A stretch of 64,000 nt of DNA from positions 10,134,448 to 10,198,447 of the forward strand of contig JAJEKV010000012.1 of the NCBI GenBank assembly GCA_021234155.1, read 5' to 3'. The notes beneath the pieces were generated by a model. It saw only the letters and a list, made by a program, of their open reading frames with translations. It was not told the origin of the DNA and did not search any database. Both the position numbers and the translations under genes were made by a program. Source of the DNA: Isoetes taiwanensis. Taxonomy: Eukaryota; Streptophyta; Lycopodiopsida; Isoetales; Isoetaceae. Shown in pieces: positions 9,111 to 21,222 of the stretch (within the stretch, counting starts at the first letter, position 1; each line of letters starts with the position of its first letter).

Positions 9111-9982
9111 TGTATATATATAAATATATATACATATATATATCCAAATGGTTGGCATAGTTTATGAAATATTCTACTGGCTTAAACTTGAGTCTCAATC
9201 TGCTTATATAACCTTATGGCACGGTTATACCATATGGGCACAAGCCTGATTCACACATGACCTTTGACATGTGGTTGAAGTTTGTAAGAATCTAGGATAC
9301 AGCACATTAATGAGGAACACTCACCATTGAGATAGGGATCAGATGGTTATCCGTTTCATGAAACCACCCCAAACTTTGGGTCGAATAATATATGAGAAAT
9401 AATTCTTGGACATAACTACACCTTTTGTAATTAAAACTTGGCTTAATAGTTGGATAATTAACTTGAAGTTTGGCTATATTTATTTGCTGAAGGATGTCAT
9501 GATGCACATGCACGACATGCTTAATGCTTTTTGATTGAGTATACTAGGGGCCACCACCTCTAGGGCATAGGACTTGACCAACATGAATTAGGTTGAAGAT
9601 AAAAACGTATGATTCTTTTAATGCCACCTAATATACATTAGTGAGGATAATGTACGAATACATATTGATGGGATATGCTAGAACTAATACGTGGGAATAA
9701 GGCGTGGCTAAAAATACTAGGTAAAAAAAAAATTTTTAGGGTTCAAGTCTATAATCGGAGATGGTCTTGTGGCATTGACGGATTTCTTAGGAAATTCGCT
9801 ATGTTCGAGAATGATAAATGCGCCTCCAAATTGTACTGAGGGCCGTAAAAGGATACGCTTATACGTGCTGCTGGATTTCTTCTTCCTAGCATGACATTCT
9901 AGGTCTGAAAATTCTAGAACAGGTACATCCGCCGGGGATTGAATGGCTCCAGGTCTGGGTAAGTAAAACTGACACAAACAGG
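9111..9982 (+). promoter_or_regulatory. 5' leader of retroelement copy 1
   Basis: About 870 bases without a convincing plus-strand coding frame, nearly identical to 16161-17034. A strong donor-like site (GGTCTGG|GTAAGT) near 9957 suggests an upstream noncoding exon or an alternative N-terminus for ORF1. Families 1/2 and 3/4 share only the first roughly 25 bases (CCA..TGGTTGGCA.AGTT), so the extreme 5' end is the conserved part. Promoter activity is inferred from position. Confidence 0.4.
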
Positions 9983-10399
9983 ATGAAATATCTTTATAGC
10001 ATGGATATTAGGGTTCATTGTTATATCAGAAGTTTACCTCGAAGTTTTGAGGCGCTTGAGCCCTGTTTTGAAAGAATGCCAAGGCCTGAGGGATCATCAA
10101 ATGTTTTACCAACAAAGGCTGAGATTATTGCCTTGCTTAAGGAAAGGGGTATTGATTGCAAGAATGAGGGCGTGACCATAAAAAAATCTGTATTGGAGGA
10201 CATGGCAAGGAAGGCCGGAATTGATTTATCTGCCAAAAGACCCAACGCTGGAAAACGACCTGGATCAAGCATCGAAGCCTGCCTTGCAACTGTAGCTAGC
10301 AGAGCTGGAAAACATACAAATAGGGAGGCTGGAAGCAGCATCAACATAACTGGAGATGGGGATGACTTCTTTGACGAGGAGTCTATACCATTGAATCAG
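9983..10399 (+). CDS. Retroelement ORF1, exon 1 (copy 1)
   Basis: Exon 1 encodes about 139 residues from ATG at 9983 to the codons for PLNQ, followed by a GT donor (AATCAG|GTTCAG) in phase 0. The conserved core (residues about 46-80) reads PTKAEIIALLKERGIDC then KKSVLEDMARKAGID. The same block is in copies 3 and 4. Its two helices with a Leu/Arg/Gly turn resemble SAP/HeH-type DNA-binding motifs, but this is a weak resemblance. After it come a basic stretch (KRPNAGKRPGSS) and an acidic tail. The start is uncertain because an upstream exon is possible and the first about 35 residues do not match copy 3. Splicing to 12023 keeps the frame. Confidence 0.65.
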
Positions 10400-10785
10400 G
10401 TTCAGTTTTTTGATTATTAAAAACATGGTACCTGGTAGATTAAATATGTTAAGTAGGCAAATATTAAGGGGTTAAGGTTGAGAGATAACATGAATCGTGC
10501 ATGGTCTGCTGCATCCATTCATTGTATGTTTACAGAAGTGTCAATACCAGATGAAATAACATATCTATGGCAAGCCAGGAGAAGGTTTTATCATCAACAC
10601 ATGTCATAAAGACAGCTTTTAATTCTGTTACAGCAAAATAATTTGTGCTATGAAATCTGACGGTATTTGTTACAAGGTTATCTTTTTTAAGGTTGAAGGG
10701 CGTTAAGCCAGTTGAACCTATTGCTTACCTGCTAATCCCTGCATGCTTACCCAATTTGGCTAATGCTTGTATGTTTGGATTGCAG

Positions 10786-11043
10786 GTAACCAGGTTCTAC
10801 TCTACCTACTCTAATGTTTTTGGAAGCATGAGGCATTCAAGGGAGTGCTTTAACAGCAAGGAGAAATGGTTCAATAATATCTTATGTAGAAAAAAGGATG
10901 CTAAATTTGAGGAACAAAAGCTCATGTATAAGCTATACAGGTTATATCTTTCCCCTAATCTGAAATGCTGCAAGTGCGATATCGATCAATGGGCTAAAGG
11001 AATTGAGCAGGAATTTTTGGATAAGCTGACTGATGATACTTAA
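10786..11043 (+). CDS. Alternative terminal exon of ORF1 (copy 1)
   Basis: After a pyrimidine-containing stretch and TTGCAG at 10785, an 85-codon frame opens in phase 0: VTRFYSTYSNVFGSMRHSRE, then KEKWFNNILCRKKDAKFEEQ, KLMYKLYRLYLSPNLKCCKC and a stop at 11043. It would join exon 1 in frame to give a short product of about 225 residues with a Cys pair. The distant family (46697) keeps the first about 20 residues (VTGFSPTSFVFDKAYGR) and then stops. The first bases are GTAAC, so the same junction can also serve as a donor. Whether it is an exon, a recursive splice site or both is unresolved. Confidence 0.45.
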   Translation, partial: VTRFYSTYSNVFGSMRHSRECFNSKEKWFNNILCRKKDAKFEEQKLMYKLYRLYLSPNLKCCKCDIDQWAKGIEQEFLDKLTDDT

Positions 11044-18095: not shown

Positions 18096-19074
18096 GTACT
18101 GTGCACTTGCACAAAAAAAAGTGATATAGGAGGTTTTATTAGGATACTAAGTCGGATACATTTTAGATGATCTGATTTATATGAATATTTGGTGGAATGC
18201 TGGTTACCTACTTATGCAAAAATTAAAAATGGAAAAATAATTTTGAAAAATCAAACGTCTGCATATCTGAACTTTGAATTGTTGCTTGAGGAAAGTTTTA
18301 AATACTTAAGGGATGGATCATGTATATAAGTTGATAGGGTCTAAAATATTTCTACAGTTTACTGTTGCCATTATATCCTAAATGTTGAAACACCTACTAC
18401 TGTAAGTATGTAAGAAAGCTATGACGGCCAATCACGAAATATTGACTTTGATTAATCCTTCTTGTGCTGGGAACAAAAATTGAGATAAACATGCTTAAAT
18501 ACATTGATAGTGACTAAAGAATGCAATAAAAGTTCTAGTATTGAGGTTTATATGAACATGGTACCTTCTTGGTCTATGATAACAGTAAAGGTAATTGTCT
18601 GAAAACATGGTAATGTTTTTATCTTGGAATTGGTAGGTAGTGTCTCCCAATGTTTATCTCCTCTCTAATGTGGAGCTGATAAGTCTAGGCATGGCAGGAT
18701 ATCCTGTACATGGCTAGATGTCTGGATCATGACCCATGGAAACTGGTCTGGACTTGTATATATTCGGTGATTTCAGATTGCTGGTTTAACTGGCAGTGAA
18801 CAATTTGGGGGACACTAACTGTTTACTACTGAGTCATAAAATATACTATTTTAAATACTAAATACATCATAAGTATATCAATACTTGATACTATCAGGAG
18901 TAAATAATGAGGAATATCATGAATGGTTTAAAACATAAAGATTCTTTACTAAATTAATGTCGGAGAGGGCTAATACAACAGGGCATAAAATGTTAAAAAT
19001 TTAATGATCTGTTCGGCATGATGATTACCTGATATATGGACATATGTTTACTGATGTTTTGCACTATTCTATAG

Positions 19075-20711
19075 GAAGGAACTACAAGTACAGGCAAACA
19101 AGCCTTGGGGGCAAGTAATAGCAACATTGAAGGGCATGATGCTCCCAACGAATGGTTTGCAGAGCTAAAAGCACAAGGTTACAACTTATTGGGACGCCCT
19201 GCTCCAAATCTGGCAGTGCAAACAGTATTAGCATGCATACTTAGTCCTGAGTTGCATCAGTATATCATCCAGAAGGAAGTAAATGTTCCTAATAGCGACC
19301 ATTCTGCTATTATTCATATGGGTATGAGCAACTGCCTTACAATGGTTGCTGGTTTTGCAAAGAGTGATTACAATATAGAAGCGTGCAAAAGCATTATTGA
19401 TGGCAGATATAACAGACTACCCATTGTGCAATTCAATGCCACTGAAAAGGAGGCTGCCAACTTAAGGACATTTGTCAAGGGTCTTACAGCACTTGAAAGG
19501 GCTAATGGTGTGAAGTTTACCTTTCCATCTAGCAACAGCAAAAGAGCTCGCAACAAAGCACCCTGTGAGTAATGCACCACTATAATACCAAATAGCCCCG
19601 AAAGCAAGAATCACCGTTCGGTGTCAACATGTTACCCGAAGAATACAGGAGTGCCTTCACTACCAGCAAGGATGCTGGCCTGGAAAAACCTGTCATACTG
19701 GCTGATGAAGTGGAAAAACCTCCTATTGCAATGTTAAATCTATTTAACTGTGGAAAATTCCCAATTATGTCTCAAAGAGAGGTCGAATCACATGGCGAAC
19801 AATACAAGCAAGCTCTATGGAAAAGCAAAAATCTTGGTGTTCTTGCCCCCATTAGCGTGGAGGCGTGGAGAAAACTGGCTAACATCTCTGATGATGATGT
19901 TAAACGAGCATTCGAGGATGCTGACAACTGCATACGAAGGGTGGATAAATTGGAGGTAATATTACCTTTTCCGGCAAAATGTTTTGGATTGGAATGTAGC
20001 AATAGCATGGCCATCAGCATAGGCCAAAAAGGGCATCAAGCTAGAGTTGATGAGAGAAGACATGACTTCTACATTAAAAAGATGTGGAGAACATTTTGCC
20101 CATTCATCAAATGCACATGTGGGAAAATAGCCAAGGAAAATGGGGATTGCCCTGATACCATAATATGGTTAGACCAAGGAGTATGGTTTCTTATGAATAA
20201 CTTGGAGATGGCATGGCCTATGCTGCCTAACATGGTCAGATTTGGATTCTTCAGTTCACTACTATCCACTGTACCACTAAAGGATGCTGTTACTGCCCTA
20301 CTTGGATACCTCAGGGTAAGGGACACATTAATTAAAATGGTTGTCAAATATTCAGAGGACCCTAGTACAGATTTGAACTTGGAATATGGGAATACTAAGC
20401 TTACTGATGTTCTGGAAAAAACTATCAAACCACTTAAGTTCATTATTGGTAAGCAACAGGAACTGAACAGCCCGGGACAGACTGTTAGCAACAGAAAACG
20501 AAACAGTGAGCCTGACAGCCCAAACTGTTCCATTATTATGCCTCCTCGTCTGTACAAAAGACCTGAGACCAACAATCACGGAGTATCTGATAGCTATAAC
20601 CATGATATTATACAAATTGAAGATTCCAGTCAGGGGGACAGATCTGTGACAAAGGAAAACACAACTGCAAGCCGATCATATGACATCGAGAATCGGGATT
20701 TTGACATATAG
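19075..20711 (+). CDS. Retroelement ORF1, exon 2 (copy 2; interrupted near 19570)
   Basis: The frame begins after the acceptor TTCTATAG and matches copy 1 through NSKRARNKAP. It then breaks at 19560-19625, where copy 1 has several CTG/CAG words and copy 2 has CCG/AAG/CGG variants. It reopens at the MLPEEYRSAF segment and continues to a natural stop at 20711. Its C-terminal tail, lost in copy 1, includes SPGQTVSNRKRNSEPDSPNC, SIIMPPRLYKRPE and an acidic end. Taking each copy where it is intact implies an ORF1 protein of about 685 residues including exon 1. The interruption is suspected to be a consensus error rather than a real pseudogene lesion. Confidence 0.7.
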
Positions 20712-20862
20712 GCGTTTTATAAGGTATGGAAACCAAACTATATAGTTATGAATACAACATCTTTTATCTGTGATAATCTTCTTTCTTTGACATACTTGTT
20801 TTAAAATGTAAAATAGCATGCTTACCCTAATACTATGATGACTGATTAGAAAATAAAAATGA

Positions 20863-21222
20863 ATGACAATTGTAAAGGGGGCATGGGAATGCATACGTAT
20901 TGATTCAATGCCTAAGATGGCATTACATATGGAAATTGATCCTCCTGATCAACTTGTACAAAATGCATTCCAGATGAAGACCAGAAACCTGGTTCTAAAT
21001 GAGGAAGGGAATTGGAAGCTTACCATGTACAAAGAGAAGGATAAAAAGAAATACATACACTTCTGCTATTTTTCTAAATTGGTCAGCAGGCTGAATATCG
21101 GTTGGTTCTTTAAAAATCAATTACAAATATGTTTTGGCGAAAAAGGATTACTCCTTTATGAAAACTCCACATTTGGATGGAGATACATCAACAACATGAA
21201 AAGCTGGTTCTATAGACCCAAG
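20863..21222 (+). pseudogene. Reverse transcriptase N-terminal remnant (copy 2)
   Basis: The first about 120 codons equal copy 1 (from [13 protein letters not shown] to KSWFYRPK). The frame then enters the TA tract, so all catalytic motifs are missing and no active RT can be made. The Tyr-Ile run that follows is microsatellite, not protein. Confidence 0.9.

Follow-up and report, generated by a model that had tools for sequence, protein, structure and literature searches.

For Penelope-like elements (PLEs) without an endonuclease, the literature describes priming of reverse transcription at exposed termini or at breaks, for the most part at chromosome ends, and the repeat layout is said not to be shared by protist and fungal ones (PMC3846280). 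Their rotifer representatives are tied to telomeres and feature short telomeric repeats and a hammerhead (PMC6431247). The Penelopes of rotifers have partial tandem repeats (pLTRs) of about 200 bp (PMC3846280), and for the Anolis element PAc the account of its in vitro reaction places initiation inside the RNA, near the border of pLTR and open reading frame (ORF), and finds it to require the ORF's first 172 nt (PMC11167929). In this work, we analyzed a stretch of 64,000 nucleotides from Isoetes taiwanensis (the window), located at 10.134–10.198 Mb of the 23.1-Mb contig C930 (JAJEKV010000012.1 of assembly GCA_021234155.1). An earlier note on this DNA, made from its letters alone, had proposed a Penelope-like reverse transcriptase (RT) element with a two-exon ORF1 and no endonuclease. 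Our self-alignment bears this element out as a single insertion of an endonuclease-less Penelope-like retroelement at 9113–21228.

We propose that the lineage is an endonuclease-less Penelope-like retroelement of many families in I. taiwanensis, and that the ends of TA-repeat DNA would prime its reverse transcription at a UAUAUAU motif in the ORF1 intron, in a manner resembling telomeres with telomerase. To this explanation as a whole we assign a probability of roughly two in three.

Insertion anatomy and repeat ends

The genome search covered 1,658,258,908 bases in 1110 contigs; for the RT, 61 of 4721 first-look candidates were scored, and for ORF1, 91 of 3507. Twelve insertions were studied at length, namely the two in the window and ten elsewhere in the genome that ranked next after these in the RT match list, each fetched with about 10 kb per side. 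Six further insertions (L037–L042) were read for their 3′ ends, which brings the total to 18.

Self-alignment showed a second insertion in the window at 44201–55024, which we call family 2. Both window insertions consist of a full unit and an incomplete second copy that restarts from the unit's 5′ end. The extent proposed for family 1 in the earlier note held as that of one insertion, while its part from 16166 to 21228 turned out to be such a second, incomplete unit copy, 98.4% identical to the first. A direct repeat of the unit's 5′ part follows the RT in all 12 insertions, giving the partial-tandem (pLTR) layout, and this terminal repeat contains ORF1 exon 1 plus most of the intron. Its length is 2.5–3.8 kb in 10 of the 12 and 5.06 kb in family 1 of the window; insertion c10 is a longer tandem, with 7.5 kb matched and its start outside the fetched stretch. 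The repeat period amounts to 6.9–8.3 kb in 11 insertions and to 11.8 kb in c3. Between the RT and the second repeat lie a conserved GC-rich fold of 27 pairs, 4 of which are changed on both sides, and a junction rich in TA. The two repeats of one insertion differ by 0.8–4.05% (11 insertions), far below the difference between families. It follows that each insertion is young and had its repeats made alike as it arose.

The outer repeat stops at a preferred place. In 14 of the 18 insertions its 3′ end is a fixed intron site, TATATAT, followed by TA repeats. This site lies upstream of exon 2, and there the inner copy continues with TC, whereas the outer copy enters the TA repeats. Such ends were found in nine of the 12 insertions (c1, c2, c3, c5, c6, c8, c9, c10 and family 2) and in five of the six of the second set (L038–L042), with a short and interrupted TA tract in L040 and a few TG units at the beginning of that in L042. 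The 5′ end of the insertions is constant and TA-rich in 11 of 11 where it is visible. At the left junction of c2 (L013), the start of a second element, inverted, adjoins the same TA tract, two insertions lying head to head in one target.

A predicted folded intron site and its probable TA-repeat target

The fixed site is part of a conserved RNA region that is predicted to be structured. From 13 sequences of the 12 insertions (183 columns), RNAalifold derived a consensus of 45 pairs, in which TATATATTC is invariant and stays unpaired between two helices. In the covariation count, 94.5% of cells pair. Changes on both sides were counted for 18 pairs (10.5 in shuffles) and 51 cells (19.2 in shuffles, standard deviation 3.4), values that 0 of 500 shuffles reached, and further pair types numbered 51 against 44.8 in shuffles, with 3 of 500 reaching this value. 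Slid structures gave at most 8 pairs and 2–15 cells. Family 1 alone has a predicted fold of −62.2 kcal/mol (z −3.7) that leaves UAUAUAU unpaired and pairs the next UC. When both window insertions were searched against Rfam with E values up to 5, telomerase RNA and hammerhead included, just weak matches to other families far below their gathering scores were returned. A hammerhead was also rejected on its core pattern, the matches of which fall in ORF1 or RT coding sequence.

Genome-wide, we used the pattern GATGTCTGGN{16,36}TGTATATAT, which detects only sites that retain TGTATATAT. It gave 83 matches up to TGTATATAT, of which 43 continue with TC and are internal sites reading TATATATTC, 33 continue with AT and are terminal sites reading TATATATAT, and 7 continue otherwise; one match among the 43 and another among the 7 appear fortuitous. 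Reversed-pattern controls gave 0, 0 and 2 matches. For 17 of the 33 terminal sites, the 13 kb upstream contain an intact inner site on the same strand, at a spacing of 6.9–11.8 kb in 13 cases, 3.8–4.1 kb in three and 409 bp in one. The other 16 terminal sites might belong to solo repeats or to copies in decay. The pairs spaced at 3.8–4.1 kb (C1019:10559086-10562983, C1025:16686877-16690777 and C1039:2684474-2688612) and that at 409 bp (C985:12325003-12325457) are possibly non-autonomous derivatives retaining the site.

TA arrays occur in the window with and without the element. The sequence TACAAGTNNTTNTACTATNAGGG is present five times (up to 3 mismatches; 0.01 expected), always adjoining a TA array, and the arrays that it flanks at 6832–7059 and 38137 show no element in self-alignment. 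The TA arrays therefore exist independently of the element. Random junctions would touch a TA tract of at least 10 bp in about 1.8% of cases (264 kb checked, elements included). Arrays bearing TACAAGTNNTTNTACTATNAGGG extend over 6832–7059, where it stands in inverted orientation on both sides, and over 37985–38159; perhaps they are a repeat resembling miniature inverted-repeat transposable elements, with a TA core serving as landing site. A telomeric setting was not found, as the window is interior, at 10.1 Mb of the 23.1-Mb contig, doubled TTTAGGG is absent from it, and the junctions are TA.

Starting from the observed anatomy, fixed ends, TA junctions, conserved covarying site, conserved intron and selection (the latter two described below), we infer every biochemical step of the following route. 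The element would be transcribed, with ORF1 being made from spliced RNA and the RT also being translated. Only unspliced RNA would retain the intron fold and display the unpaired UAUAUAU. The RT would bind this fold. A 3′ end within a TA tract, provided by a break, a nick or an extruded hairpin and not cut by the element, would pair with UAUAUAU and prime cDNA synthesis. On reaching the RNA 5′ end, the cDNA would shift to the 3′ part of its own template or of a further RNA, by way of the homologous sequence with which the next repeat starts or of a circle, and the whole unit would be copied. As an outcome, a unit followed by a 5′ repeat would arise, with two near-identical repeats, and its TA-rich 5′ end would join the other side of the TA tract. 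Because the putative initiation site is located in the intron, spliced RNA could not serve and the template would have to be unspliced, which would explain intron retention. We may further speculate that the RNA contains a template domain of the telomerase kind, which picks out interior TA-repeat DNA through base pairing. The target would then be encoded by the RNA and no endonuclease would be needed, and the position in the intron would tie retrotransposition to unspliced RNA and so keep the intron. This latter idea is tentative, with the odds slightly against it.

Several points weigh against priming at the intron motif. The TA at the 5′ end is weak proof, because the element's own first 30 nt or so are TA-rich. 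Insertions c4 and c7 end away from the fixed site, no end is visible in the 4.3 kb read of L037, and the window insertion of family 1 stops inside the RT, though also in a TA repeat, (AT)71. The covariation numbers overstate independence, since the fold comes from the very alignment on which it was scored, made of related sequences. The fetched copies are the best matches to the window RT and no random sample, and the genome pattern leaves ends elsewhere uncounted. Moreover, the Anolis PLE is reported, in the account of its initiation, to start at a site without homology to the cut DNA (PMC11167929).

As an alternative, an ordinary endonuclease-less PLE might enter any break. TA tracts would then simply be prone to break, and the common end would be the transcript 3′ end instead of a template. 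This would be in line with the priming at exposed ends or double-strand breaks described for such elements (PMC3846280), and with family 1 in the window, which ends at a non-standard place, yet in TA repeats. However, the common end point carries the invariant TATATATTC that matches the target and does so within a covarying fold. Breaks elsewhere would also yield other junctions, but AT comes next in 33 of the 40 non-internal sites. We hence consider entry at any break unlikely. The 3′ TA repeats could also have been made by the RT itself, stuttering on UAUAUAU like telomerase, and not stem from the target. The TA lengths at the junctions vary widely, from 10 to 96 units in the second insertion set, and some TA growth by stuttering may have taken place. 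As the main source of the repeats, stuttering is nevertheless quite unlikely, since TACAAGTNNTTNTACTATNAGGG also borders the two element-free arrays and since the 5′ side is TA-rich too.

Coding capacity, selection and the search for an endonuclease

The RT ORF at 13810–16023 is open over 737 aa and contains the motifs quoted in the earlier note, in an order that we take to be that of PLEs. RVT_1 was the sole informative Pfam match of the window RT (E 1.9e-4, below cut-off), and it matched 12 of the 13 aligned RTs weakly, with a best E of 3.7e-5. PADLOC RT models likewise matched weakly (best E 2.2e-5). Comparison with PDB sequences gave no relative, just 2 chance matches (E 0.15 and 0.48), NCBIfam gave a single match at chance level (E 0.077), and no RT relatives were present in the viral contigs or plasmids searched. 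Seven other aligned RTs differ from the first by 21–35% of residues. Asp 411, 555 and 556, at the motif A and YIDD positions, are unchanged across all 13 and presumably catalytic. We did not retain the idea of a spliced downstream RT exon after KKYR, where a donor-like CAGGTA is found, since the similar flank turned out to be a host repeat that adjoins TA arrays containing no element.

The two-exon ORF1 proposed in the earlier note is real. At its donor, a GTN codon comes after PLNQ in all 10 copies with exon 1 examined (AATCAG/GT at base level in 8), the acceptor reads AG/GARG in 11 of 11 copies, and the intron is in phase 0. These conserved borders suggest that the intron is kept through retrotransposition. 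The length had been put at 685–705 aa; taking a conserved Met (10076 in family 1, 45460 in family 2) as the start, as the alignment suggests, would bring it closer to 650 aa. Pfam, NCBIfam and PDB searches gave no match beyond chance, in agreement with an ORF1 of no recognized family. Its N terminus, without a Pfam match, is presumably SAP-like, and we take a C-terminal motif without a database match to resemble a SUMO-interacting motif. The Cys cluster pointed out before is conserved in the form C...KCxC...C and also kept in one distant ORF1, aligned at 41% identity. Among scored matches, ORF1 is found at most 4.5 kb upstream of the RT in 49 of the 61 RT matches; in the remaining 12, it may merely have missed the scoring cut.

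A functioning lineage had been argued from two families with both ORFs open. This holds for family 2 (45265–51652) but not for family 1 in the window, whose ORF1 is broken near 13429 in copy 1 and near 19572 in copy 2. The 12 insertions support a lineage active until recently: the RT is open across 706–737 aa in 11 of them, and ORF1 exon 2 is open in 8, where it measures 543–548 aa. In seven of these RTs, one or two stops were counted within the aligned stretch, but they are located at its edges, as the open RT frames show. The ratio of nonsynonymous to synonymous substitution (dN/dS) is 0.07–0.18 for the RT (10 of 22 pairs with finite dS) and 0.05–0.10 for ORF1 (4 of 16 pairs), the other pairs being saturated and uninformative. 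Both ORFs are under purifying selection.

Pfam scans for endonucleases and LTR-type enzymes covered ORF1 and RT, the shorter frames of the units being left out, and gave no GIY-YIG match in either. In a genome search, 150 of 263 candidates were scored and 121 GIY-YIG matches listed, the nearest of which is 176 kb away from any of the 61 RT matches. Two of these loci, L043 (C1030) and L044 (C1034), contain a high-copy GIY-YIG ORF of 118 and 156 aa, apparently from a different mobile element equipped with a GIY-YIG of its own; the ORF upstream of it at L043 weakly matches the UvrD_C_2 helicase family (E 1.3e-4, below cut-off). With so many GIY-YIG matches in the genome, such an enzyme, or that of a long interspersed nuclear element, could cut the target in trans. 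This distance to the closest RT, however, and the two loci read, which have no RT within their 1.5-kb flanks, make cutting in trans very unlikely. That the terminal repeat results from recombination between copies, or that the element is a long terminal repeat (LTR) retrotransposon, is suggested by the long direct repeats flanking the coding part but is extremely improbable, as the same scans found no integrase, protease or RNase H and the same repeat end site is used in families whose RTs share just about 65–80% of residues.

Features of the two insertions in the window (positions in the 64,000-nucleotide stretch)
Feature	Positions	Strand	Basis
Family 1 full unit, 7053 bp: TA-rich 5′ start, ORF1, RT, 3′ hairpins	9113..16165	+	self-alignment, sequence
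Family 1 ORF1 exon 1 from conserved Met (probable start), presumably SAP-like N terminus	10076..10399	+	alignment
Family 1 ORF1 intron, contains the putative initiation site	10400..12022	+	donor and acceptor conserved across copies
Conserved intron site with predicted RNA structure (consensus of 8 helices), containing the invariant TATATATTC at 11705-11713	11588..11764	+	
Family 1 ORF1 exon 2, 468 aa, C-terminal tail broken	12023..13429	+	
Family 1 reverse transcriptase, PLE-like, 737 aa, no endonuclease domain detected	13810..16023	+	ORF list, Pfam, RT alignment
Conserved GC-rich double hairpin at unit 3′ end, ahead of TA-rich junction	16055..16165	+	
Family 1 second unit copy (3′ terminal repeat), stops inside RT at (AT)71	16166..21228	+	98.4% identical to 9113-14176
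(AT)71 target tract at family 1 3′ junction, then TACAAGTNNTTNTACTATNAGGG	21223..21365	+	
Family 2 full unit	44201..51770	+	self-alignment
Family 2 ORF1 exon 1 (probable start)	45460..45786	+	alignment
Family 2 putative initiation-site TATATATTC, internal copy	47426..47434	+	
Family 2 ORF1 exon 2, open	47633..49258	+	
Family 2 reverse transcriptase, 719 aa, open	49493..51652	+	ORF list, Pfam
Family 2 3′ terminal repeat, stops at fixed site and continues into TA repeat	51771..55024	+	

Outside the insertions, self-alignment of the window showed a 4.65-kb direct repeat pair (1–4653 and 57532–62178), 93% identical and about 57.5 kb apart, for which a segmental duplication or a very large element are possible readings. 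Inverted repeats (5727–6790 and 55496–56543) lie just inside this pair, with both PLE insertions between them. On the minus strand, an open frame at 1585–2241 contains an NLI-interacting-factor-like phosphatase domain (PF03031, E 3.8e-12).

Comparison with known elements and telomerase

Our literature search, which did not extend to the main PLE papers, brought up no earlier account of these elements in Isoetes, nor of PLEs primed by TA, and the word Penelope is absent from the main text of two Isoetes genome papers (PMC8566536, PMC10541799). The earlier note had judged ORF1 architecture and setting to be unlike those of known endonuclease-less PLEs. The architecture is not new in itself, since two ORFs without an endonuclease are already published for such elements (PMC6431247). 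Athena and the terminons of rotifers as well as plant cases (Selaginella, pine, spruce) likewise have two ORFs, no endonuclease and the use of free 3′ ends (PMC6431247, PMC3846280, PMC9033089). The Isoetes lineage differs from these published elements in its long terminal repeats, probable TA-repeat targets and putative structured internal initiation site. Compared with the rotifer endonuclease-less PLEs in particular, it occupies interior TA tracts, its terminal repeats are mostly 2.5–3.8 kb long, and the two window insertions contain no Rfam hammerhead.

Canonical Penelope/Poseidon PLEs such as PAc of Anolis resemble the Isoetes element in their partial tandems and initiate internally (PMC11167929), as the Isoetes element would too, but unlike it they carry a GIY-YIG endonuclease. 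With the fixed site as the end point of 14 of the 18 insertions, the Isoetes anatomy fits internal initiation at the repeat border. Chlamys and Naiad PLEs insert in microsatellites and have a GIY-YIG N-terminal to the RT. The Isoetes family thus appears to combine a layout implying internal initiation, the lack of an endonuclease and a target that matches the probable initiation site.

The likeness to telomerase would consist in a DNA 3′ end that pairs with an unpaired template motif in a folded RNA. In contrast to telomerase, the 13 Isoetes RTs have no Pfam match to the TERT RNA-binding domain, the template would reside in an intron of the element itself, with the copy spanning the whole element; the host genome has two TERT-domain loci of its own. 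PLEs and telomerase are of common ancestry. The Isoetes family looks like a possible working intermediate in the origin of reading a short internal template in that RT branch, with an RT without endonuclease, a folded RNA with a template-like unpaired motif and matching DNA ends. If true, this would provide a simple reason for intron keeping in PLEs, together with a target rule set by RNA.

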